From Ascidia mentula (Eukaryota > Chordata > Ascidiacea > Phlebobranchia > Ascidiidae): a stretch of DNA of 64,000 nt. The notes beneath the pieces were generated by a model. The model was not told the DNA's origin and searched no databases. It saw nothing but the letters and a program-made list of their open reading frames with translations. Made by a program: the position numbers and the translations under genes. The stretch is from NCBI GenBank assembly GCA_947561715.1, contig OX387202.1:11483001-11547000 (forward strand), read 5' to 3'. The first letter of the stretch is position 1. Each line of letters starts with the position of its first letter. Positions 15,784-59,930 of the stretch are shown here, piece after piece.

Positions 15784-18700
15784 ATGGGTTCTAAGAAAGA
15801 CCACAAACACAGGAAAGAACACAAACATAAGCATCACAGAAAGCACAGAAGATCTGACTCAGAAGAACGAAGTCCAGTCGCTAAACGAAAGTACGAATCA
15901 CTGGAAGAATCAGAGGCGCACTCTTCAAGGTAATGATTCTATAGAACTAGTGGTTTAAAATCCTGTAAAATAAAACGACGGCAAATGTCAGAAACTGTTA
16001 CGTTCCTTGGAAGTTTTGAATTAAAAAAAAAAAAAGTTTTGTGGTGCAATGGTGAAGCATTCACATTGTTTAGCCTATATCAAATGTAGTCTAAAGAAAA
16101 TCATGAACCTTAAGTAGTTCGATTTTTTGCTTGTCGCCTTTGAGCAACTTACTTGTACTCTCTTTGGTTGATGAAGCTCCTGAATACTACTATCGGAAGA
16201 GCTTCACTAATTTATCCTTGCCTTTAAAGTAAAAAACACAGAGGCCCAGAAAAGCACAAAAGAGAGAGGCATCGAAGGGACCATGATGATAGTCCACAGG
16301 AAGAAAAACGATCTTTGAAGAGGGAAGAAGTTGAAGTGATAGAGGAGGAGGAGGAGGTTTACGTTCCTCCAGCAACTAAACAATCCAACGATGCAGAAAT
16401 CGGAGATCACGCCGAGGGGCAAAGTTTAAGTATTGAGGAAACCAATCGTGTACGAGCAAAGCTTGGCCTGAAACCTCTGGAAGTCAACAGCACACCTGGA
16501 GGTGAAAATGGGAAGAAGCTTGGACGGAGCGATGAGGATTCTTTTCATGCTCCTGCAACTGATCTGTGGAAGCAAAAGAAGGAGAAGGAAATGAGAGAAA
16601 AACTGCAAGCCAGTCGTGACAAAAGAAAAATGAAACAGAAGCTGTCCACGGTTGGTGTATTTTGCAGATTTAAAAGAATAAAAAAATCAGTGTGGTTTTG
16701 CCAGTTTGCATTTTTTTTTAAATATTGTCAATGTTATGTTTGTTTACTTTAGTTTTAATAGATTAATAAACCTTAGCAAAAAGCCCTGAGGAAGTCTGGC
16801 CGGATGGTGGACGAAACGTTGGTTTCAATAAACCCTTTCGAAACTTAAGTGCCAGAAGAGCAATTCCTATTAATTACTTAACAAAAAGGTTAACAAAAAG
16901 CAATTTCTGTGTGTGTTTAAAGCTTTTACTGCATTTAGGCTTTTCTCTACATTTTGCTAATTGCTTTAAATTGTGTTTGTGTTTTTGCAGATCAAAACCC
17001 TTGGAGAAGAGGAAGAAGAAGAAAGTGCTGCATCCTGGGTAGTGAGGAGCAGGGAACACCAGGATAAAATCAAAAAAGAGAAACAGCTTGCAGCGATTGG
17101 GGATCAGTTTGGAGTTGGAAAATTGGTCCAAAAAGAACTCGGCAAGACAATCAAAAAGGACCCTGATTACTCAGAAAAAGATCTTAAGGTTAGATGTAAA
17201 TTATAAATTTTTAGCAACTGATGGGACATAAAAGTAAACAAGTTAAGAGTCATTGCAAAAAACAACATTTGAATCTCACCTCACACCAAAGTAAACCACA
17301 TAAGAATAAAATTTGTCATTTTTGAAACAATTCATTCCGTAATTGAGAAGTGATGGCTGTTTAGCAACTACAGTATAAATATAGTAAAATCCGTGGTGCT
17401 CCTGCTTATATACAGTCCTATTTGTGTAATATATCAAACATGAAAAAACAATAAACAACACTGGATCGGTGAACCAAGCCACCCTGGTAGGCTGTCGATC
17501 GATACCGTATCTGTAGTAGCTGAGTAAAACTTTTAAGTCAATCTTTCAGACAGCTCTTTTAAAGATGTTTTTAGCATTCTCTAATTTTTAATTTTTTAAC
17601 ATTAATTTTTTTAATTTTTATCAAGGTACTTTCCTTTATGTGGCAGACTTCTACTTAGTTATTTTACGCTGTTTTGTACACTTTGCAGAAACTGATGATG
17701 CCCTTTTCAGGGCGAAATATATTTTTCTGACAAAAATAAAAACATCTTTAAAAGAGCTGTCTGAAAGATTGACTTAAAAGTTTTACTCAGCTACTATATA
17801 TCAAACATTTTATACATTTTTGTTTATTCATACAGGGCCTAAACGTTGAACATTCCTTGGAAAGCTTCGTAGACGGTAGAAGTGCAATCTTGGTAATAAA
17901 AGACAAGGACATTTTGGCAAGTGACGAAGAAGATGTTTTGCACAGTGTTAATGTCGATGATATTGAGAAGGCCAAGAAAAATCTTGATATCAAGCGTAGA
18001 GGAACCGGATATAAGTAAGCTATTTTTAAGCTAAAACATTCACAGAAATTATTTTTCAATTAGCGCATAGCAGTGGTACTGGTGTATCCATGGAGTCTGA
18101 AAGGTCTGAACCATCCTGCTTGTGACATGTATACTTTTTATTGTAACTAATTTTTGGAACTGTTTTTAAAAATATCCTGGGTGTTTCGATCCCATTAACA
18201 GGGGTACTCTGTGCAGTATATCTTTTTTAGTGTTCATGACTGGTATAGACAACGCATTAATGTTTCATGCAATGGCATGATTGGTAGGATTGCTTCACTG
18301 CGCAGGTCCTTACCTGCTATCATATCATCAAGATCATTAGGTTTACAGGCTTCGCAGCCCAGACTTGCTATGACTGGTAATAGATGTTGGTTTCTGCTGC
18401 AAAAAATATTGGACCTACCTGTGCAGTGTGTATAACATCAATGGAGCCATTCTTAAATGTTTTTTTCATTAAAATAAAGAGCGTATGAAGAGGAGGAAGT
18501 TGATGAACTTGGATTTTTCAAAGCCAAATCCACACTGGGAAAATATGATGAGGAAATAGAAGGTGAAAAAAAGAATCGCTTTACCATCGGTAATCAAGGT
18601 GCAGTGGACACATCGTGGGAACAACAGAAAATACAAATGCGACAAGTAATGTTTCTACTATATATACATGCAATTCCTCCAATGTAGAGCTAATAATCAT

Positions 18701-25900: not shown

Positions 25901-27783
25901 GTTCGCATGTGAAATATTAATGACCACCTGCGTTTAAACACGTGTGCACTGATAGAAACCAGTGCAGTAAAATACGTTGTAGTTTCTCGATTTTACTGCT
26001 TTCTCGAGATTTGCTGTTATTCAGTTTGACTTCCGTCTATACTATGCCGTCGAGCCATTTATTTAAACTATTAGTCGTGACAACAAGAGTATATCGTGAT
26101 CATGCTTTTCGATGTGGCTACAGACATGTATTTAGTTGAAATTCCTGTTGCTGCCAGGCATATTACAGTTTAAAATGTATTTGAAGTGTAGTTTACTTTG
26201 AAATTGCGGTATCAATACCTGATGAAGTCTCGCCGCATGGCAGACGAAACGTCGAATAAATACAGCACGTATATTTTATGCCAGAAGAGCTGTACATTTA
26301 AAAATGTATTTATTTGTTTTCAATTCAGTTGGGAAGAGAGAACCTGTTTGTATATATGCATGCGAGTTTGCTTGTAAGTTGCAAGATTTTGGTGGTTGTT
26401 AAACGTATATAGCGTAAATTAGAGTATTGTTTTGTTCCTTAAACCAATCACAACTTGCCTGTCGTTGAAAAGCAATACCTGTCACGTTTTGTTTATCAGA
26501 AACAATGCGTTTTGTCTTTCAGCAGAGGCAGTTTCTTTCAAACCCAAGTATTTATTTCTTCGTTTGACTTCCGTATATTCATGTTGACAACACATAGACC
26601 AAGTTACGTATATGTCGCCTACATTAAAAAATGTTCAATGTAAATATTACGCGAAATACAAACATATGCGCGGCTTGACTGCATCCCTAGCATCTTACGG
26701 ATAACACATATCCACAATTTAAAATCAATTTTGGCCCACTATGAGGCCTGGATAAACAGCAGCACTGAGAGCTTCTTTGACCGACAGTTCTTGGTCATGA
26801 TCAGATCGTAAGTTTCATATGCTTTGTAATCAAGTAATGACGCATCCTACAGTAGCATGAATGGCGTGATTGTTTATTTATACTGAACATGACGTATTCA
26901 TATCACGAAATAAGTTTTTTTTTTGTTTTGCCGAGGATATAGGAAATTGCTAGAGGAAGCCAGGCTATGTTTAGCTTTAACTAGTGCTTAGACAAGTTAG
27001 ACATTCACTGTCGTAGATAACTGTGCCTTGAAAGTTTTCTAAACAAAGAGTTTACTGACAACAGAGCTTGTACAAGACTACAGCAAGGCAGACTTGTCTA
27101 TATATCATCCATCGTTATTCGTTTAAATATGTCATAAGTCTGTCGTTTGTATTGTTTTTAAAACATTATATTCAAGGTTACCATATCAGATTTGTGCCTG
27201 TTGTTACAATGTCTTGCCAAATACAAATGTACTTATTTGTAAGTAAGCTTCTTTTTGATTAGTGGCCATAATTTGTCTTGGAAAGTTTTCATCAATTTGG
27301 TTTGTCAGTTAATTTATTTTTCACGGAGACTACTTTTGTGCAAGAAGTCCTTTCATAAAGTGTGGCAAAACCCAAGAATTTGACTAAAATTACAAAAGTT
27401 GGGTGCAAAATACTTGGAGTTGATTACTTGGAATAGAAAAGCCAAAGCTAATATGATATTAATCGATGTGACTCTGGCGTGTTGCTTTGCGTTGTTGTTT
27501 TTTTTCTGTTCGTTCAGTCTCATGTCCACCTCGGCGCTCTGCTGCATGTAGCTCATTTAATTATAGTACTGACGATGAACGCAGTTAGTGTTTGAAACGT
27601 CTACTCTATAATATGATTAATAGAATATTATCTTTGGCTCTCTAAAAGTCAAATATTCAAATGTTGGTATAATCTACTGCGCCATCGCGTAGTAGCGTGC
27701 TTAATCTTGAAACAGACAGTATACAAAGCTTATGTTAACACTACTATACTTTTACCTTTCAGCTGTAAGGGCTTAGGGACAGT
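22950..27783. other. Intergenic region, 4.8 kb
   Basis: I could support no coding exon. The stretch from ~24.4 to 25.9 kb is less AT-rich than its surroundings but has no recognisable open frame. One hammerhead-like repeat lies at ~26206-26290. A good acceptor (acctttcag) at ~27762 suggests that the IPPK gene has a spliced 5' UTR exon upstream in this region. Confidence 0.5.
26206..26290 (+). ncRNA. Hammerhead-ribozyme-like element 3
   Basis: CTGATGA (26219-26225), a hairpin with GTCT/AGAC plus GCC/GGC pairs and loop GCAT, GAAAC (26246-26250), then ACG...CGT(A) as a possible stem III. The flanks GGTAT/ATGCC and AATA/TATT can form an imperfect stem I. It ends in GCCAGAAGAGC like element 1. 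Present in intergenic DNA. Confidence 0.5.
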
Positions 27784-29223
27784 ATGCTTACCCGAGCAGC
27801 CGACTGGGAATACAGGACTGAAGGGAATAACCACGTGATATTTTCCAATATTGTAACCGGGTCCCTGCTACGGCTTTCCAAAATTCCCAAACATCGACGA
27901 AAAAACACTGCGGAAAAAAATGAAGAACAGTTCATGGAGATCGAATTTCTCGAGACGGTTATTTACAAAATGCTGGAAAACTGCCGAATTCATTTCAAAG
28001 CAGAAAAAGTTGCATTGAGTCAAACGTTTGTCGACGATTTGTCAAGAAATATGAACGATAAGCGTCCGATGCAATTTGGGCTCGACGCATTGGACGACCG
28101 GTGTACATACGGTCTGACTATGCCTAATTTCTGCGACCGTGTAGTTCACACAAAAACAAGAATAGATCACCTCATTATTCCTCATTCGCCAGTCGTTAGC
28201 ATAGAAATAAGACCCAAATCGTGCTACGTCCCTCACCTGTCGGAAAACGCCCCGAGCGCTTTGCGCAACAAATGCTATTTCTGCCTGATGCGCATTTATG
28301 CAAAAAATTGCAACCCATCCAAGGCTCGGACTCGTTACTGTCCTCACGATCTTTATTCCAACGACAAATCAAGGATGAAAAGAGCTTTGTGTGACCTCAT
28401 GGCAAGCCCAAAGCGCTACTTCTCGGTACGCATCGATGACGAGCCGATCGAGTCTGGACATAATGCAAGTGGAGACCCTGAAATACATCCGAGGCTTTCT
28501 GCCTTTTTGGACGCAAACGACAACGAAAACGAACTGGAAGCATTTTTGAACCTAGTTTGCGCCATTTTGCTCACCCCCATTACCAATCAAACACTGCTCT
28601 CGAAGCCCAACGTTGCTAAGCCCCACTGCCGACGGGGAGCCGATTCCGACACACAACGCGATGCGGGCAACGACGTCACTCGTGACGTAGCCGGCTCAAA
28701 TGTAATGCAAGTGTTGGCCTGCATACAAGATATGCGCGACCTTCCAATGAGCGAGGTTATGAAAGCGGATGAGCGCGTACGTACATATACTGACTGCAAT
28801 CCCGAAGATCGAGACCTTCTTTCGCTGGACTTTCCATACTCGGTCGACAACTGGAAATGCGCTCTTGATTTTACCAAGCGCGAACACGAGTTTACTCCAC
28901 CGCTAGACGATGCCCAAGAGACCGAAAAAAGTGAAATGGTTGCGCTCGTAGCACAATTGCGCCGTTTTATCGTTTCTCGTATTTTTAGCTGCTGTTCTTT
29001 AATAATTTCTATGCAAAAAGTCACAGCTTCTGATGTAGAGGAAAATGGGCTTGACGAGAAATCGTTTGTGGTCAACGACGGCTTTGGAAATTCGTATTTA
29101 TCGTCGATTGCTATCCTTGATCTTTACAAAGATCCTCCAAACCAGATCACAAAATACTACGAAAACGAGCTGCACATTTTGTCGCTTTTGGTCCAGCATT
29201 ATAAAAAGCTGCAAATTTCGTGA
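27784..29223 (+). CDS. IPPK: Inositol-pentakisphosphate 2-kinase
   Basis: Makes InsP6 from Ins(1,3,4,5,6)P5 and ATP. A single coding exon of 479 codons. The family marks are visible: N-lobe EGNNHVIFS, SIEIRPKSCYVP (the E-I-K-P-K-x-G-F motif, with R for K and C-Y for G-F), CYFC, YCPHDLYSNDKSRMKRAL and the C-terminal ILDLYKDP segment. Length is like human IPPK (491 aa). An in-frame stop lies shortly upstream of 27784, so this is the start; a splice acceptor just 5' implies a non-coding first exon. Codon use looks more GC-rich than in the neighbouring genes. AATAAA at 29503-29508. Intronless coding sequence suggests an old retrocopy or intron loss, but the frame is intact and probably functional. 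Confidence 0.9.
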   Translation: MLTRAADWEYRTEGNNHVIFSNIVTGSLLRLSKIPKHRRKNTAEKNEEQFMEIEFLETVIYKMLENCRIHFKAEKVALSQTFVDDLSRNMNDKRPMQFGLDALDDRCTYGLTMPNFCDRVVHTKTRIDHLIIPHSPVVSIEIRPKSCYVPHLSENAPSALRNKCYFCLMRIYAKNCNPSKARTRYCPHDLYSNDKSRMKRALCDLMASPKRYFSVRIDDEPIESGHNASGDPEIHPRLSAFLDANDNENELEAFLNLVCAILLTPITNQTLLSKPNVAKPHCRRGADSDTQRDAGNDVTRDVAGSNVMQVLACIQDMRDLPMSEVMKADERVRTYTDCNPEDRDLLSLDFPYSVDNWKCALDFTKREHEFTPPLDDAQETEKSEMVALVAQLRRFIVSRIFSCCSLIISMQKVTASDVEENGLDEKSFVVNDGFGNSYLSSIAILDLYKDPPNQITKYYENELHILSLLVQHYKKLQIS

Positions 29224-35035: not shown

Positions 35036-36983
<1,948 letters not shown>

Positions 36984-50253: not shown

Positions 50254-52595
50254 TTCACCAGGCTTCTATATTACTCTTATGATACACCCTAAATGAAGTA
50301 AAAAAGCAACCTGAAGATCAAAACACTACAAAAAACGCACCACACCACCACAATATTAGTGTTCCGGCAAATGTCCAAGCAAAATGCAAAATAGCAAGTT
50401 GCCAGCTTGTTGCAAGATTTCCCGCCAAAATAAATTCAGTGATCCGTTCCACTACAGTCGTTGTTGTATATGGGGCGCCGTTTTGAAAAAAATTAACTTG
50501 CCGCAACATAGCTATTTTTCACAATGGCATCAACGCGCCTTTTTGAAAAATATTAACTTGCTGCAAGATAAAGCTAAGTTGCGGCAAGATAGCTAAGTTG
50601 CCGCAACATAGAGCTAAGTTGCGGCAAGATAGCTAAGTTGCCGCAACATAGAGCTATCTTTCCGCAACATAGCTATTTTTCACAATGGCATCAACGCGCC
50701 TTTTTGAAAAATATTAACTTGCTGCAAGATAAAGCTAAGTTGCGGCAAGATAGCTAAGTTGCCGCAACATAGAGCTAAGTTGCGGCAAGATAGCTAAGTT
50801 GCGGCAACATAGTGCTAAGTTGCGGCAAGATAGTGCTAAGTTGCGGCAAGATAGCTAAGTTGCGGCAACATAGTGCTAAGTTGCGGCAAGATAGCTAAGT
50901 TGCGGCAACATAGGTCGAAGTTGCTACAAGATAGATATGTTGCCGCAAGATAGAGCTAAGTTGCTGCAAGATATCTAAGTTGCTGCAAGACAACCAAGTT
51001 CCCCCAACATAGAGCCAATGTGTCGCAACGTAGAGCTAAGTCGCAACGGCAACTTAGCTATCTTGCCGCAACTTAGCACTATGTCGATGTAGGTCAAGTA
51101 CAGTTGTCCTATTCATATTATCTTGCCGCAACATAGAGCTAAGTTGCGGCAAGATAGCTAAGTTGCGGCAAGATAGCTCTATGTTGCGGCAACTTAGCTA
51201 TCTTGCCGCAACTTAGCACTATGTTGCCGCAACTTAGCTCTATGTTGCGGCAAGATAATATGAATAGGACAACTGTACTTGACCTACATCGAGTAATACA
51301 CGTAAAAACTACAAGGGACTGTGTCACAAACCTTTTTACTACTGTAGACAAAAAAAGTTATCACACTCGAGCGAAACACAATGGATGATAAGATTAGATT
51401 GCAAACACCACAGTTTTTCCGCTATCTTTCGAAAGTTGCACAGGTTTGTTGCAAAGTTGCAATTTGGAATTTAAATTCTGCCTCACGCCGTATCAGTCGT
51501 TTTTTCAGAAAAAAAGCGCAACTAAATGAACTATTACTACTTTTTGTACTGGCTGCTATTTCTGTTCGTAAACTGTCACTAAATACTAGTCATAAAAACA
51601 TACTGTAATAGATCTTAGGACTGCAGCGCAAAAGACCCCAAGGGTACGTAGCATGGTTTTGGGGACTCCGTGAATGGCCAAGAAATACCTTCGTTTAAAA
51701 ATGTAAATAATTCTTTAGTTCTTCTGCTACCATATTTTTGTTTGTATTGTTTATTTTAAATAAATTTTGGTTTCTGGCCTTTCCTACTTTTTTAATTTCA
51801 CACCAATTTCTGCAGTTATAGAACGTAGTTTCGCAAGAGCTGCTGGTCAAATTTACTGGGGGTCTACAGCCTTGATGACTTTTTAAAAGGGATGCCTGAC
51901 TACAAAAAGGTTGGAGATGCAACGATGGTGCATTCGGTGAGTGCAATAAGTATAGCGCTTATAACTTCTATTAGGCGTAGTCGCCCGTGAACCTCAATTT
52001 ACAGTTTATTGTCCTTGACCCTTAAAAGGCAAAAGCCTTTGGGTCAAAGTTAATAATCTCCTTTCTTCTGAATTTGAAATTTGTCAATATTTCAATTATT
52101 ATGTACAATTTTATTTTTACCAAGTGTCAAGTGCACAACACTACTTACATAAGCAGTTTACAAGGCAACTGATTAGAACAAAATGCCATGTACAGCACTT
52201 GCAAAAGTGTGAAACAGAGTTTTGAAACATACATGGAAGGCAAAACAAATACGCGTTTGCATGGTCAGACTTGGGCTAATACAACATTTATGTACAAATT
52301 AGTTTGAGAATCATAATTTCGTTGCAGGAACCACTGCAAGGTATACCGTGCGCAAGTATTGTTCATTTATATTGTAGTCTATCGCACAACTAAAATTGAC
52401 ACAAGACGGTCAGTCAGTTGATCAAAATTAAGTAAAGATAGTCAAAATTAAGTAAAATTAAGTAAGGTGTAAATACACATGAATAATGCGAAGACATCAA
52501 TAGCACAACATTTAAAGGTGTTTATAGTTCGTTCTACAAAACATTCTACTATTGTTTATGTGATTGAGCAAAAAGGGGTCAGAGCAATATATTGT
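50254..52595. other. Spacer upstream of CDT1 with satellite DNA
   Basis: Apart from the minisatellite at 50470-51291, about 1.3 kb remains in which I see no gene. A short AAGTAA-type direct repeat (aaaattaagtaa) occurs at ~52425-52465. Confidence 0.5.
50470..51291. repeat. Minisatellite of GCTAAGTTGCGGCAAGATA-type units with palindrome
   Basis: About 0.8 kb built from 18-24-bp variants of gctaagttgcggcaagata and gttgccgcaacatag on both strands. A longer block (containing agctatttttcacaatggca) recurs at 161-bp spacing (50511 and 50672), giving a higher-order repeat. The right end, 51085-51291, is a 207-bp palindrome bounded by cgatgtaggtcaagtacagt and its complement. It begins about 220 bp upstream of the CDT1 start codon. 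Confidence 0.9.
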
Positions 52596-55031
52596 CTATC
52601 CTTTCTTACTGGTCAATTCAGCTTTATAAGTTTTGTGAGATGAGATGTAACAAGCGGCACTTCTGTTATGCCTTTCATTGACATTTTCCTGTTGACACGC
52701 TGCAATATCTACAAAACTTAAAACTGTTACAAACAGCCTTCGTAAAACGCACAAAAAGAATGCCATCGACTGAAAACTGAGATATGATATCTCATGCATA
52801 TAGCAAATCTGTTGTCGAAACTGAAATGTATCCTGTAAACCACTAACTGTCACAACCACAATGCCTTTATATGCGCAAAAGAGCCATAATAGTCAATGAG
52901 AGCTTAAGGCAGGTGTACACACTGTTTCGACCTGTAAGGTCTCATCAGTGTAGCTGGTGAACGTGGCACATGCTAGCTGGTAGACTAGCAGGTACACAGA
53001 TTTCCACTCTGTGGTACCTTTCGGTTAGTCTACCAAACAGTGTGTACACCTGTCTGCAGCTCACTATGTCTTTGTTTGCACTGTTTGAATATTTTTTGTA
53101 GTTCGGTTTTCGTTAGTGTCGACAATTCTATTTAACAAGAAGAAAAATCTCGGACTATATTTTAACTTACTTGCATGATATCAAGTTGCGTATGAAACTC
53201 ACACAGGTTTTCACACAAACAACTCACAAACAAAGACAGTCGGTGGCCTTCGAATAAAGCCGTTAGAAATGCACCTGGAAACATAATAAAACACACATGT
53301 TACATAATAATACTAATTTCGTAAACATTTTGAAGAACATTAGGTTTGCAGGCTTGGCAGCCCAGGCATTGCAGCCTAGCTGGATCAGCCACTTTTTACT
53401 GACAAGTCGGAGCAAGATTTGAAAAATCAAGTTACCGGTGAGGTTTGAACACACGACCCTGGGCTATCCAGGCCCAACACTCTACAAACTGAGCTACAGG
53501 GGCTCAGTGGTTTCACGGGGTATATTGTGGCCAAGGTACACTGGTGCGCAAGCGCACAACTTGCCAGGCAACCTTCACATATACGTAGGGGATCTCTACC
53601 ACCGTATCAGATAACGCAGTAATATTTCATGCAATGGCATGATAGGCAGGATCGCCCCACTGCGCAGGTCCTTGCTTGGCGATCACAGCTACCGTATCGC
53701 GATCATTAGGTTTGCAGGCTTGGCAGCCCAGGCATTGCAGCCTAGCTGGACCAGCCACTTTTTCCTGACAAGTCGAAGCAAGTTGTGCGCTTGCGCACCA
53801 GTGTACCTTTGCCATAATATACCCCGTGAAACCACTGAGCTCCTGCAGCTCAGTTGGTAGAGCGTTGGGCCTGATTAGCTTAGGGTCGTGAGTTCAAACC
53901 TCACCGGAAGCTTGATTTTTCAAATCTTGCTTCGACTTGTCAGGAAAAAGTGGCTGATGCAGCTAGGCTGCAATGCCTGGGCTGCCAAGCCTGCAAACCT
54001 CATGATCGCGATACAATAGCTGTGACCGCCAAGCAAGGACCTGTGCAGTGTTGAAGAATTTCTGTCTACGAAATAAAACCGCAGGGCAACGTTTGTAAAG
54101 TAACACACAAAAACCCAATCCCCATGCAGTTAAATAATGCATAACGCCACAAAACGTATATTGCAAAATAGGTTCCTTACTTGATTGGGAGTGCACGATT
54201 AACATATCTGCATGAAGTGGCGGAATGTTTGGATGTGGTATAAATGCCATGGCCCTATGCATTTGGGATTGAACTAGTTCAGTAGAATAGAAATCCCAAT
54301 CCAGTTTTTTTGGAGTCTAAGTCACATCGATTTGTTTTTAATACCGTAACTTTTTGCGCACTGATAGGATATGCTTGTATTTTTTGCAACGCTGTTCAAT
54401 ACAAATTTTATTTACTTTGTCCTTCAGATGCTTGAAATATCAATATTATGCTAGACCGTATTATTTATGGAATAGGGATTTTTGTATTAAATACATAAAA
54501 TGACAATCAGATTTGGAATAGTTTTAAAGTTTATATTGATTACCTGCAGAAAAAATATTTTCGGCTTGTTTTTTAAATTTGGGTACTTCTCCCACGTAAA
54601 CAAACTCAAAAATTCACCAAGTGAAATTTCTTTATTGTCTGTTTCCCATTTTAACGATTGTTTTTTGGTAAATGTGAGCAATGCACAGCAGAAAATGCTG
54701 CACTCAGAAATTTGTTTCATATCTGAACATAAAACAAATTACCTTCAAGGCAACATAAATTTCACAACCTAACAAATAAATTACATTCAGCAATATCGTC
54801 TTCCAAGTTGCCTTTTGTTTTATACTCAAGTAAATGGGGAGTAAATCCCATTTCTTTTGCAGTTTTCTGAAGATTTTCTTTATCAGGCGGACCCATGTAC
54901 TTTTCGTAACCCTAAAATGATATTTTTGTGATGGTCACTATAAATGTTTAGGGAAGAATCTATAGCATACCTCGTACGAAACAATAATGAAGTGTTTAGT
55001 GGGGTCGGTGCTCTTCTTCACAAAAACTATT
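52596..55031 (-). CDS. Caspase-like unit 2, catalytically degenerate (model incomplete)
   Basis: Second caspase-fold unit directly downstream of the caspase at 55.4-59.9 kb. Supported exons: 54971-55031, 54785-54911, 54544-54722, 54181-~54254/54273 (5' boundary unsure), 53171-53274, 52596-52832. The order follows p20 then p10: HFIIVSYEG, DKENLQKTAKEMGF, SECSIFCCALLTFTKK, NKPKIFFLQ, IPPLHADMLIVHSQS, LFVSCLCENLCEFHTQLDIM, and a C-terminal SFQSMAFFLCVLRRLF. The catalytic His position reads LLTFT instead of LLTHG; the RxGSDxDA strand is replaced by MGPPDKEN; no QACRG could be found after FFLQ, and the SWR substrate motif is absent. It may be a separate pseudocaspase gene or the C-terminal half of a double-caspase protein: the first exon needs a phase-2 partner that I could not identify. 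Confidence 0.7.
52911..53052 (-). repeat. Dispersed element C with hammerhead-like core (copy 2)
   Basis: On the minus strand it has CTGATGA (52942-52948), GACCT/AGGTC hairpin and GAAAC (52924-52928). It is bounded by 18-bp inverted ends (aggtgtacacactgtttc and complement at 53035-53052). Same family as the element at 46.4 kb. It lies in a caspase-unit-2 intron. Confidence 0.65.
53330..53505 (-). repeat. tRNA-derived SINE, family B (minus copy)
   Basis: Read on the minus strand: tRNA-like head with A-box CTGTAGCTCAGTTTGTAGAG and B-box-like GTGTTCAAACCTC, then a body with tgatttttcaaatcttgctc and the 3' part gccaagcctgcaaacct. It is not a functional tRNA because the body is fused directly to the acceptor arm. 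Confidence 0.75.
53507..53842. repeat. Inverted repeat between SINE-B copies
   Basis: The segment gtggtttcacggggtatatt (53511 on) is inverted at ~53783-53842, and a partial SINE-B body (53640-53780) lies inside. The whole 53.33-54.05 kb block is therefore a nested set of SINE-B insertions in opposite orientations. Confidence 0.65.
53838..54050 (+). repeat. tRNA-derived SINE, family B (plus copy)
   Basis: The tRNA-like head has CTGCAGCTCAGTTGGTAGAG (A-box) and GAGTTCAAACCTCAC (B-box), followed by the body caaatcttgcttcgacttgt and gctgccaagcctgcaaacct. It is the best-preserved copy and could still carry an internal Pol III promoter. Confidence 0.75.
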
Positions 55032-55349
55032 CTAAAAATTGTATATATAGAGAGTTTGTGATCTGTATAGAATGTTTTTTGCTTATTCAGTATCTTCTAA
55101 AGAAATAAAATGTTGTTTTCCAGAATACGATCGTTTTCTCATTATGAGAACACATGAAGGACAGACAAACAATAAAAATACTCTTTTGGTGTTTTCTTTC
55201 CAAAAACAAAATCATGAGTTAGCATGGATGTTGTTGACGCCATTTGCTTTGTCACGCATTTTTCTCCATTTATTTCATCAACCCATCACACAAAACCTGA
55301 ATTGAAAGCTTTTATTTAGAAAATTAGGTTCAAATAACTATTTAACCTG

Positions 55350-58300
55350 TTATAAGGTGTTATTTCTGTTATTTCTTGCCTGGTTTATTGTAAACTCCTC
55401 TTTCGTTTCCAGATTTTTCTCGAAAGATTGGCAAAGCGCGTTGATAAATAGACTTCCATCTGTTTCATCCCTCCACGACACAAAACCTAAATTTAAGTCT
55501 AAAAAAGTTAAATGCGCTTGTGTAAAACCACACGTCCACCATACCTGGAAATGTCGATTGAGCAATGAGGAAATGTGCTTCTCTAAATGATGACGCATGT
55601 ACTACGTCAAGTAATTTAAGTGAAGTTGGTTGTTCATTAACAAAGATGTTCTTTTCTTTGCCTCTACAAGCCTGACATGTAAGGTTCAAAAACATCAATC
55701 TGAACTACTTGAGTCATTATAACATCAAAAGTTAACTTAAAGCTGTAACAAAAGTTGCTTATTTCAACCAGCATGCGGCTTAAAAATGCCGTAACTTAAA
55801 CCCAACTGAAAAACATAAACGTTATTATTATTTATTAGGATAAAACAATAAAATTTACGTATTCTTCATGTTTGTTGGTAATGCTGTCAGGTATATTACT
55901 CAATAAATCAAATCTCCGCAAGAAAACTTGTTTGGACGACGTTTTGGTCGTTATACAGCAAACCTTCATCAGGACAAGTAAAATAAAACGCCAACATGGC
56001 GATAAATAGTAACGCGTGAAAAGGGCGAAAAAGCTAAAAAAAAACGAAGAGGGGAACAAAAAGAATTAAAAATGCGCGCCGACAAGGAACGAGATACCGG
56101 CGTCTAAAGCACAGTGCCCTGCTGTACGCATCAGGTTTAATCAGGGGGCGTGTCGCGCAGACCGTTTATCAAATGACGATAAACGGGTGGAAAAAAGGTT
56201 TCCCTTTTATCATTTTATGCACAGGCTCAATAAACATTCTCTTGTACCTGTCATTTCCAGAATTACTGCATCTTCAAAGTATACCACATGTTCTGTTTCA
56301 ACCACATGTTGCGACAGTCCTTGAAATCTTCTTGGGCTTGATGACATCCCGAGGCGGGTTGCGCCTTACGGACAAGATTAAAGGAACATTAACGGGATGT
56401 CATCAAGCCCAAGAAGATTTCAGGGACGGCACAAGAGAATGTTTATTGAGATGATAAAAGGGAAACCTTTTTTCCACCCGTTTATCGTCATTTGATAAAC
56501 GGTCTGCGCGACACGCCCCCTGATTAAACCTGATGCGTATAGCAGGGCACTGTGCTTTAGACCCCGGTATCTCGTTCCTTTGTTGGCACGCATTTTTAAT
56601 TCTTTGTGTTCCCCTCCTCGTTTTATAGCTTTTTCGCTCTTTTTTGCCCTTTTCCCGCACTACTGTTTATCGCCGTGTTGGCGTTTTATATTAATTCATT
56701 TATCCTGGTGAGGGGCTGTTGTAGAACGACCGAAACGTCGTCCAAACAAGTATATTTATAATTCCAGAGGAGCTTTGATTTATTGAGCATACTTAGTATG
56801 CAGTATTTTTTTTTCTGTTCTATTTTTCATGGTGCATTTCCATTATAAGTTTGATTCTCTGTCTGTTTCGTCAAACTTTATTTTTTTAGAAAAATAAACA
56901 ACTTGGTTTGTCATTGAGGCCTTTGGTAAATTTTACGTGGGGGTATGCAAAAAAAGGTTGGGTAACACTTGGGACACATCTAACTGACAAACAAGGAAAT
57001 GCACGGTCGAAGCACACAACCAACAAAACAAAAACCAAACGGATTTGTAACGGTTACTCATCAATCGGCATGTTCACATAAACCTAAGGTAGTTTTTCGT
57101 ATTTCACAACAACAGTTTTTTGGGAAAACTACTACTTTAATGGTTCTGATTATTTGTCATTATCCAATATTACCATTAAAATAAAATATTGAAATGTTAA
57201 AGTATGTTACTATATACGCGTTTACCTGTATAAAAAACAACTTGGGCTTGCCACTTAAAGTTTTGCAGTTAGTATGCGAAAACTGCTTCATAACATCGCG
57301 TAGATGGAACTCCTTATCTTTGGCTTTCAAATGTTGACCCTCTTTGTCATAACGTCCGTGAGTTAGTATTGCACAAGCAAAACAAGAGTAGTATGTGTGG
57401 TCCATTTCCACAACTGATGTACAATTATTTCTATTTTATTATGACTAATTTAACTAAATTATAAGCACGTACCTTTAGCCACTATCTCGGTGATTTCATG
57501 TTTTGTTACGTTCTTATAATTGAACACCTCAAAATTAAGAGCACCAGCTACTGTTTCAAGACGGTTAGCATCCTCATCACTTCCACGTCGTATGTCTTCA
57601 GGAGAATCATCAAAATTCTGTTAGAACAATTTTGAACTCTTAAGAGATTGTGTGCTGCATTGCTATACAAGATCTGTGCTTATTGTTACAATGTTTTCGA
57701 AAAATAAAAAACGCCTGTAAGAAATGTGCTTGCTTTGAACTTGCGGGCTTAAATGTCTTGTGGGGCGGTGGTAGGCATTTTTCGACTGGCCGCTGTAACC
57801 AAAAAAAGGTTGATCGTCAGCGTCCTTACTTTTTGCTCCAGGTCAATGGTAACCCTGGCTATGCACCACAATTCCCAATCTATCCAATCCATGTGGGGTG
57901 TCGCTACCCTACAAGGGTTCCTAAGACGACTTTTATGAGTCGCAAAAGTTTAATGCCTCACAAATTACAACAATAATCCTTTGAAGCCCCAGGGGTCACC
58001 GGTGACCCCACGACTTCAAAGACCTCAAGAAAAGAAAGGTTTCTGCTTTTTTAATTTTTTTTTGGCTTTAAAGCCCAGAGTCCCCCCTTGGCCCTGATCT
58101 AGATAAAATTTTAAAGCCGGTAGATGTCGCTATAGCAATTTTTTAACTGACACAGCGAACCCGACCTCGACGAAATTTGTGTTTTTTTTGAAGAATCTAC
58201 GTAGCCTAACTGTGAATTTAACCTAGCAAAAAAAAAGAAATACTTTATATTTGCATAAAATTAAATGGTCGCATACTGTCTAAAGTACTCAACGTAATTT

Positions 58301-59930
58301 GTCATGTTTTTTTTAACTTTTCGGCCTGCTCCCTTTTGCTCTACTTCTTATGTGTGAATTGTGGTAGCGCAATTGTGTAAAATAAAAAAATAAAATAAAA
58401 AAAAACGGAAGGAATCGGAAAATAGATAGTAACATGTGCGTTTTTTGCAAAAAGCAGGTGGAAACTGTGTGTCATCTTTTTGTTCGTGTCCCACTGTCAT
58501 TGTATACTGGGAAGATGTCATTTCGTTTTTAAGTGCTAGAATACGACAAAATCTAATTTTAGCAGATGCAGAAAAACTTTTTGGAATTCATTCTGATTTG
58601 CCAAGTGAACTTTTTTTAAATTGTGCGTTGTTATGTGCCAGATATGTGATTTACAGGAGCAACGTAACTGTGAATTTTACCTAGCAAAAAGAAATACTTT
58701 ATACTTCCATAAAATTAAATTGTGGCATACTGTCTTTAAGCTTTTCAATGAATATTATCACATAGCAGCATCAAATGATACTAGAAATAATACGTGCATC
58801 ATCTGTTGTCTCGATTTTGGGCCAGGTTTTTATTATGCACGGTAATATAGCTATTTGCGTAGGTTTCTTCAAATTTTATTGGTATAAATAATCATTGACC
58901 AGCAAAAGTTGTCAAATATCGCTGTTACAACTTGTGCAGCATCAACACGGACCTAAATAAGGCGTAGTTTAGCTTTAAATATTGAAAAACTTTTCTGCCC
59001 ATATAAACCTGCAAAACACGAAAATCACACGTAGTGGGGGTATAAAAATTAGTTGTTTGACCAAACATAGTAAAATATTACATCGATTTCATTCAGGTTC
59101 TCACTTGTACAACTAAAGAAGCTTCACTAGTTTCAACAAAATTAGAAAGTTAATTTTTTTCATTGTGTATGCTCCAGAGCCCAATGGGTCACAGGTGACT
59201 CCACCAGAAAATGGAGGTTACGGTCAAACATCTCAATTTTTTTGGGAAAATGTGTTATTGGACCCATCAACGCAACAAAACGCTATACATTAATTTTTTT
59301 CTGATGCTCAGTATACCCTTGGAATCTGAAGGGATAAACTCAAATGCAGTATAACTGTTAATGCGGATTTGATTTGTCAGTTAATTAGGAAGTTCCGGAT
59401 GACCCAAAGACATTCGTTTTAAATCTAGTGCTATGTAGTTAGTACGAGATAGGTCAATATCGCCCTAATTAAACGGTTGGAAAACAGTATACAAGCAAGC
59501 CTTGTACTGGTTACCAAAAACGGTTTGGAAAATTGACTTTAACGTCATTCTTGCAGCAAAATGTTAAACGTTAAACAGCATATGTTAAAAAAACGTATAA
59601 CTCAAACGTGGTTTGATGTAACGAAAGCCAAGTCGAAGCAGAAAAATCCGCCCTAGTCTGAATTATGAGATGTAAATGTTTGTAAAGCTTTGCCACACAT
59701 ACACAATTACCGTCAGGTTAAATATTAAAAATATTCCCAGTGTTCCTTGCTGAACGTTGTAATAACCATCCAAGAAAGCAACAGAATCGGGGTGTACTTT
59801 AGCATCAGTGCGGTCGTCTACCGAAGGCACACCTATGCCTTCCCCTAACAACATTTTAAAAAAATTACTGCCAGTAATGCCTTAATGAAATAAAATTACA
59901 CAAACCTGCTGGTGGCAAACTTCCCTCCAT
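55350..59930 (-). CDS. Caspase, short prodomain, catalytic residues intact
   Basis: Cysteine-aspartate protease of apoptosis. Exons in transcript order: 59906-59930, 59711-59844, 57473-57617, 57226-57413, 55545-55671, 55380-55486 (726 nt, 242 aa to that point). Only ~35 residues precede the protease fold, as in executioner caspases; no CARD or DED is visible. S1-pocket Arg in RRGSDEDANRLE; catalytic His120 in CAILTHG; Cys166 in QACRG, split between exons after FFIQ; p10 has FVSWRDETDGSLFINALC with the substrate-binding Arg. By analogy to unit 2, whose exon ends at the same Gln in phase 0, I infer a GC donor (CAG|GCAAGA) after INQ; the last exon is unresolved. Without that intron, the frame ends at a stop at 55350. 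Introns 2 and 4 hold a LINE fragment and a large palindrome. Confidence 0.85.
55945..55975 (-). ncRNA. Hammerhead-ribozyme-like element in left palindrome arm
   Basis: Minus strand: CTGATGA (55966-55972), hairpin ending AACGACC, then an AAAAC in place of GAAAC followed by GTCGTCC. The changed G12 position suggests an inactive copy. Confidence 0.4.
56705..56750 (+). ncRNA. Hammerhead-ribozyme-like element in right palindrome arm
   Basis: CTGGTGA (56705-56711; core A6 changed to G), a hairpin with GTAG loop, then GAAAC (56732-56736) and GTCGTCC, with the tail CCAGAGGAGC like elements 1 and 3. Core damage differs from that of the left arm, so the shared ancestor probably had CTGATGA plus GAAAC. 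Confidence 0.45.
58180..58850 (+). mobile_element. LINE 3'-end fragment (zinc-knuckle region), broken
   Basis: It encodes a degraded LINE C-terminus. CVFCKKQVETVCHLF matches the CxxC...H zinc-knuckle that follows the reverse transcriptase in L1/Tx1-like LINEs. After a frameshift come YWEDVISFLSARIRQN and LNCALLCARYVIYR. The end sequence (aactgtgaatttaacctagc) occurs twice, at ~58210 and ~58670. It is in caspase intron 2, in antisense to the gene. Not functional. Confidence 0.6.

Follow-up and report, generated by a model that had tools for sequence, protein, structure and literature searches.

The stretch analysed here (the window) comprises 64,000 nucleotides of the ascidian Ascidia mentula, C70:11483001-11547000 in an assembly whose 79 contigs total 196 Mb, and it carries a gene with two caspase units. 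All caspase-gene features lie on the minus strand, where a single 13-exon gene model runs from 59930 to 52613 (window positions) with both units inside 52596-59930. Unit 1, an active-type caspase with the Arg, His, Cys and SWR motifs, comes first and is followed by unit 2, a complete caspase-like domain that lacks the catalytic His/Cys dyad. The first exon was modelled for the window copy only, and the unit 2 exons E9-E13 were placed by comparison with paralogous loci. The exons are as follows.

E1, 59906..59930, minus strand: start exon MEGSLPPA(G); its ATG follows an in-frame stop, in an ACCATGG context; donor GTTTGT
E2, 59711..59844, minus strand: short prodomain and first strand of unit 1 (GTLGIFLIFN)
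E3, 57473..57617, minus strand: unit 1 p20, with RRGSD
E4, 57226..57413, minus strand: unit 1 p20 including the catalytic His (ILTHG), up to FFIQ
E5, 55545..55671, minus strand: unit 1 catalytic Cys (ACRG), inter-subunit linker and a strand
E6, 55380..55486, minus strand: unit 1 p10 with SWR; GC donor (CAG|GCAAGA)
E7, 55182..55296, minus strand: final p10 exon of unit 1, with a frameshift in the window copy; 3' end ambiguous (phase 2 or phase 0)
E7 out-of-frame segment, within 55182..55296, minus strand: TKQMASTTSMLTHDFVF, in another frame than phase 0
E8, 54971..55031, minus strand: linker between the domains and unit 2 first strand (KHFIIVSYE); another in-frame acceptor, further 5', scores better
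E9, 54785..54911, minus strand: unit 2 p20, RxGSD lost
E10, 54544..54722, minus strand: unit 2 p20, LLTFT where unit 1 has ILTHG
E11, 54181..54316, minus strand: TPKK where unit 1 has ACRG, and further on HADMLIVHSQS
E12, 53171..53274, minus strand: unit 2 p10, including LFVSCLCENLCEFHTQLDIMQ
E13, 52613..52708, minus strand: last exon of unit 2, ILQRVNRKMSMKGITEVPLVTSHLTKLIKLN and stop

The protein encoded by E1-E6 matched the Pfam caspase family (PF00656, C14) with an E value of 7.1e-39. This was the sole domain matched, and no DED was found in this search, which covered E1-E6. Among PDB structures the same protein matched caspase-7 at 8.4e-31, and caspase-3 structures as well. It carries RRGSD, ILTHG and QACRG, which we take to be the P1-pocket Arg, the catalytic His and the catalytic Cys, plus SWR; ILTHG and QACRG align with those of 11 paralogues, so that by sequence the dyad is present. 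The p20 part of unit 2 by itself matched the Pfam caspase family at 3e-9, and the whole window unit 2 with its recovered exons did so at 7.4e-20, with F and P at the two dyad columns and the RxGSD strand missing; like c-FLIP, it has a pseudo-caspase domain. In an alignment of nine of the 13 available unit 2 proteins, all nine matched the Pfam caspase family (E up to 0.1), and the profile of these nine matched caspase-3/-7 structures, up to 3e-22.

Five introns (those before E3-E7 and those before E9-E13) agree in position and phase between the units, with phases that were read by eye in the window and then imposed on the gene models. A sequence-only reading of this DNA had described an active caspase beside a dead caspase-like unit on the same strand, and had noticed at least one homologous exon boundary between them. 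The pair is indeed there, five boundaries correspond, and the motifs stand as described: ILTHG, QACRG and SWR kept in unit 1, and in unit 2 an open caspase sequence with LLTFT for the His and no RxGSD strand; in place of QACRG, E11 starts with TPKK. The exons then missing from unit 2 were found as E11 (54316-54181) and E13 (52708-52613). Two other gene ends were tried and rejected. An ENVNERHN stretch after DIMQ was considered as the last exon of unit 2, but a p10 piece built onto it matched nothing in Pfam, and paralogues show ILQRVNRKMS, in another frame, as the correct reading. An end of unit 1 at its own stop at SMLTHDFVFGKKTPKEYFYC... was likewise dropped, as paralogues splice onward there.

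The window copy itself is broken at E7. Read in phase 0, this exon gives VLCDGLMK and a stop, and the conserved KQMASTTSMLTHDFVF strand lies in another frame; the start of E7 resembles the paralogues (GTTTTGTGTGA in the window versus GTTTTATGTGA in the paralogous locus L024), after which the alignment has a gap. The window protein read to its first stop has 250 residues and lacks a complete open p10, and calling this copy an active caspase, as had been done, is unsupported since the assembly has E7 out of frame. A different acceptor within this exon (AAAG|CAA) is possible; it would keep the frame and lose helix alpha5. As assembled, the copy is truncated in the p10 of unit 1 and is probably a non-functional allele or young pseudogene. 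We find it fairly probable that it is a plain pseudogene, with unit 1 broken and unit 2 surviving only because the break is recent, an account that is compatible with the best explanation of the family given below. The frameshift and the gap relative to L024 fit this account, and so does decay at other loci, where L034, L037 and L039 lack sound models of some exons and L042 lacks the catalytic Cys. It is harder to square with the 12 of 13 exons that are open with usable splice sites (the E6 donor being GC), or with an omega (Ka/Ks) of 0.16 for unit 2 against L024, and the frameshift could be an assembly error or belong to a single allele.

We found the pairing of the two units to recur across the genome. 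A search with the unit 2 p20 gave 58 matches, 17 of these on unit 1 exons. At 22 of the 51 unit-1-type loci a unit 2 match lay at most 3 kb downstream on the same strand, and gene models add L036, L038 and L042, which brings the pairing to at least 25 of 51; the 51 loci derive from 63 search rows, and these counts are lower bounds. Paired loci are located on C70 (in the window, at 14.18 Mb and at 15.86-16.19 Mb) and on C2. For eight unit 2 matches, of which five are on C71, two on C2 and one on C70, there was no unit 1 partner within this distance; one of the C71 matches lies 3,060 bp behind a unit-1-type match, barely beyond the cut-off. The unit 2 p20 search gave no match at the unit-1-type loci on C52, C71, C1, C67 and C70:4.98 Mb, nor at two further C70 loci (15.945 and 16.061 Mb). 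A domain-profile scan covered eleven regions on C52, C71, C1 and C70:4.98 Mb, and all strong p20 exons there had their higher score as unit 1. A handful of short exons had weak scores (14-26 bits) that were higher for unit 2 or given by unit 2 alone, and these we took for ordinary last p10 exons.

Fourteen of the 25 paired loci were modelled, window included. An unanchored search placed the active p20 exon before the dead p20 exon at every one of them, and the 12-exon plan E2-E13 was complete and stop-free in ten, with phases imposed as in the window and L024. GC replaces GT at several donors as modelled, namely at the end of E3 in L036, L038 and L042, of E8 in L054-L056 and of E6 in the window, and is common to related copies. 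In the family, unit 1 retains the Arg in 12/12, the His in 12/12, the Cys in 11/12 and the Arg of SWR in 11/12 copies. Unit 2 has the Arg in 0/13, the His at the aligned column in 0/13 (L054 and L055 show a His in the next column) and the Cys in 2/13 (L034 and L035). The dead domains of L034, L035 and of L037, which stands outside this table and has an E11 that begins ACD, retain the Cys (ACN, ACD) and not the His, suggesting that loss of the His may have preceded loss of the Cys. Of 11 inter-subunit linkers of unit 1, those of L025 and L057 contain no Asp; cleavage at Asp in this linker is thus apparently not a fixed requirement.

By its anatomy, the E7-E8 junction favours one gene. The modelled gap between the two units, the E7-E8 intron, is 56-194 bp in 11 paralogues. 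This junction was scored with no phase imposed, using splice matrices from 131 other introns of the same models, and phase 2 gave the best matched donor-acceptor pair in 10/11 paralogues, the exception being L042, where phase 1 is ahead by half a bit. No in-frame ATG lies upstream of the first strand of unit 2 in 11/12 loci; L057 has one. In the window, phase 0 and phase 2 both connect the KQMAS frame of E7 with unit 2.

In a tree that combined 25 domains with two caspases of the same genome as outgroups, unit 1 and unit 2 form separate clades (support 97/94 and 100/100), with long branches for one outgroup and for unit 2 of L039, and the window unit 2 groups with that of L024 (99/99). Because the clades are separate, the domain duplication seems older than the spread of the family. 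For deep pairs, pairwise codon models gave omega values, unit 1/unit 2, of 0.32/0.25 (L056-L057), 0.24/0.27 (L055-L056) and 0.13/0.17 (L025-L036), all rejecting omega 1. For the window and L024, the unit 2 value of 0.16 likewise rejects 1, and unit 1 is saturated and was not used. Across the four deep pairs, unit 2 omega is thus 0.16-0.27 with likelihood-ratio statistics of 37-64; by these codon comparisons purifying selection acts on both domains, and the dead one has long been kept. Unit 1 omega exceeds unit 2 omega in all five recent pairs (L034-L035, L036-L038-L042, L054-L055), which are not independent, as three share L036, L038 and L042 and three include a damaged copy; L034-L035 has just 98 codons in unit 1, and both copies are whole in L036-L038 and L054-L055 only. 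Young copies thus give no sign, by these ratios, that the dead domain is freer than the active one.

Together, the pairing at many loci, the short gap, the matched splice, the separate clades and the purifying selection suggest that this is probably a family of fused double caspases, active domain N-terminal and dead domain C-terminal, and not two genes, so that both units would share one transcript and protein. Of the two ideas in the sequence-only reading, fusion into a double-caspase protein is accordingly the better one, and the junction anatomy favours one gene over its separate c-FLIP-like gene. In the predicted protein a short prodomain leads into an active-type caspase domain (p20-p10), and a linker connects this to a second complete caspase-like domain without the His, the P1-pocket Arg and, in most copies, the Cys. 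Caspases act as dimers, and we therefore infer that the C-terminal dead domain folds back onto the active domain as a tethered partner. The result would be a half-active, FLIP-like heterodimer in cis, which could restrain or preset the protease and block ordinary activation by homodimerization. We give a probability of about 0.62 to the reading that the locus is a copy of a multi-copy tunicate family in which one protein carries a C-terminal dead domain as a built-in FLIP-like dimer partner that regulates the N-terminal protease.

Conservation of individual blocks at the nine complete loci lends partial support to a retained dimer role of unit 2. The blocks around the catalytic residues are far better conserved in unit 1 than in unit 2 (His block 0.82 versus 0.46, Cys block 0.89 versus 0.53), the values for beta5 are 0.71 and 0.62 and those for the GSxFxxxLC helix 0.61 and 0.56, and helix alpha5 is better conserved in unit 2 (0.66 versus 0.51); the names beta5, alpha5 and beta6 are our presumed assignments. 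This partial conservation, the Asp-less linkers and the analogy with coral caspase-X, a fused pseudo/active caspase whose killing of HeLa cells increased when the pseudo domain was absent (PMC4715348, as excerpted), are why we favour a tethered regulatory dimer.

Several observations weigh against this reading. At the main dimer contact, which is the beta6 strand, conservation is no higher in unit 2 (0.56) than in unit 1 (0.63). Among the introns, the one between E7 and E8 is alone in having been tested freely; there the best donor and the best acceptor, taken singly, are both phase 2 in only 7/11 paralogues, and the best E7 donors are weak in four of the 11 (L025 -1.3, L035 0.4, L054 and L055 -3.5). 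The window copy is frameshifted, and at its E7-E8 junction phase 0 scores above phase 2. Among the 14 modelled copies, four have one or more exons that no sound model covers (window E7; L034 E2, E3, E5 and E7; L037 E12; L039 E8), and in addition the E13 model of L037 is not credible and E7 of L039 is a short piece. L042 has Gly in place of the catalytic Cys, with an open frame and an odd end to E4. Synonymous divergence (dS) exceeds 2, near saturation, in two of the deep pairs (L025-L036 and window-L024), and in the five recent pairs neither unit 1 (omega 0.90-1.46) nor unit 2 (0.56-0.82) rejects 1.

The dead domain could instead be an activating chaperone or scaffold, such that a single-chain active domain folds and is constitutively active. 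The two linkers without Asp and the better conservation of alpha5 in unit 2 are both in line with this activator role, which we nonetheless consider unlikely, given that the pseudo domain of coral caspase-X reduced killing (PMC4715348, as excerpted). More speculatively, a tunicate lineage may have fused an executioner-type caspase to its own dead copy as a self-regulated switch, the reverse of the caspase-X order, and amplified it to at least 25 loci, with the active domain diversifying faster in recent duplicates, as in an immune or allorecognition cell-death repertoire; we give this low odds, the more so as just two of the five recent pairs have both copies whole. Two neighbouring genes, one for an active caspase and one for a pseudo-caspase that serves as a decoy in trans, like caspase-8/c-FLIP or mosquito CASPS19/CASPS18, would suit the weak E7 donors and have precedents in known pairs of separate caspases (PMC7586951, PMC4840389, both as excerpted), yet the 56-194 bp gap, the phase-matched splice pair and the lack of an in-frame ATG before unit 2 make them quite improbable.

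The tethered-partner reading has parallels in known systems, which we compare here through excerpts of the published reports. Acropora caspase-X also joins an active and a dead caspase domain in one protein (here as predicted by gene models), its dead domain lacks His and Cys, it is multi-copy, with four genes in A. millepora, and the legend of its schematic lists two caspase domains only; its dead domain is N-terminal and its active domain C-terminal, however, whereas the tunicate order is reversed (PMC4715348). The predicted tunicate fusion is likely independent in origin. Mammalian caspase-16 likewise arose by exon-block duplication, with two caspase domains in one protein, one of them dead, and its human and mouse genes are frameshifted, as the window copy is; unlike the tunicate family, with a C-terminal dead domain and at least 25 loci, it has an N-terminal dead domain and one gene, CASP16 (PMC12198278). 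The order of these two proteins was thus found at none of the 14 modelled loci. c-FLIP(L) and caspase-8 share the logic of a heterodimer between a caspase and a dead paralogue without His and Cys, but are separate genes with two DEDs (PMC7586951), in contrast to one gene model and no DED in the E1-E6 protein. Aedes CASPS18/CASPS19 offers a decoy caspase considered to enhance its active partner, again from separate genes (PMC4840389). For Ciona, the excerpted text names twelve caspases and mentions no double caspase; its Ci-caspase X is a relative of caspase-2, distinct from coral caspase-X (PMC10923776). Among the matches listed in the open-access literature we recognised neither a double caspase from a tunicate nor one in the active-N/dead-C order, which is weak evidence of absence.

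Corals (caspase-X) and mammals (CASP16) are reported to have fused active/dead caspases, and in both the dead domain precedes the active one. A reversed and strongly amplified third case, if independent, would make pseudo-caspase tethering a repeatable solution for which domain order is not critical. The many natural variants of the family, among them copies that keep the Cys of the dead domain or lack the linker Asp, would be useful material for experiments on the control that a pseudo-protease exerts over its partner.

The genome also holds single long open-frame caspases, at G000:C1:20292974 (L001, 683 amino acids) and C67:16762791 (L002, 358 amino acids); by eye only, L001 resembles a two-DED caspase-8. 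Two repeats lie in introns of the window gene. An inverted pair of a tRNA-like repeat (53335-54050, E11-E12 intron) has arms of 230 nucleotides that are 92% complementary, with Rfam tRNA matches at 53839-53912 (plus strand) and 53430-53503 (minus strand), the latter barely above the cut-off. A nested long palindrome (55926-56751, E4-E5 intron), with arms of 130, 67, 61 and 45 nucleotides that are 82-98% complementary, looks like a fold-back element or a miniature inverted-repeat transposable element. A tandem array of the TAAGTTGCGGCAAGATAGC-type unit, with periods of 20/40/161 bp, occupies 50497-51257. Nine open frames were scanned for other genes of the window, and these gave an inositol-pentakisphosphate 2-kinase in one open frame (27769-29223), a papain-type protease piece (35344-35892) and a HIND motif (16228-16752).

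Elsewhere in the assembly, a multi-exon gene of cellulose-synthase type (CesA-like) at C71:8044065 matched PF13632 at 4e-17, its nearest PDB chains being cellulose synthase subunit A (2e-21). A GH6 match follows on the same strand 2.3 kb downstream (C71:8046784), and C52 has another GH6 match. CesA is reported in all tunicate genomes and in no other animal genomes, according to the excerpted source (PMC6523144), and with its CesA-GH6 pair this genome therefore points to a tunicate.

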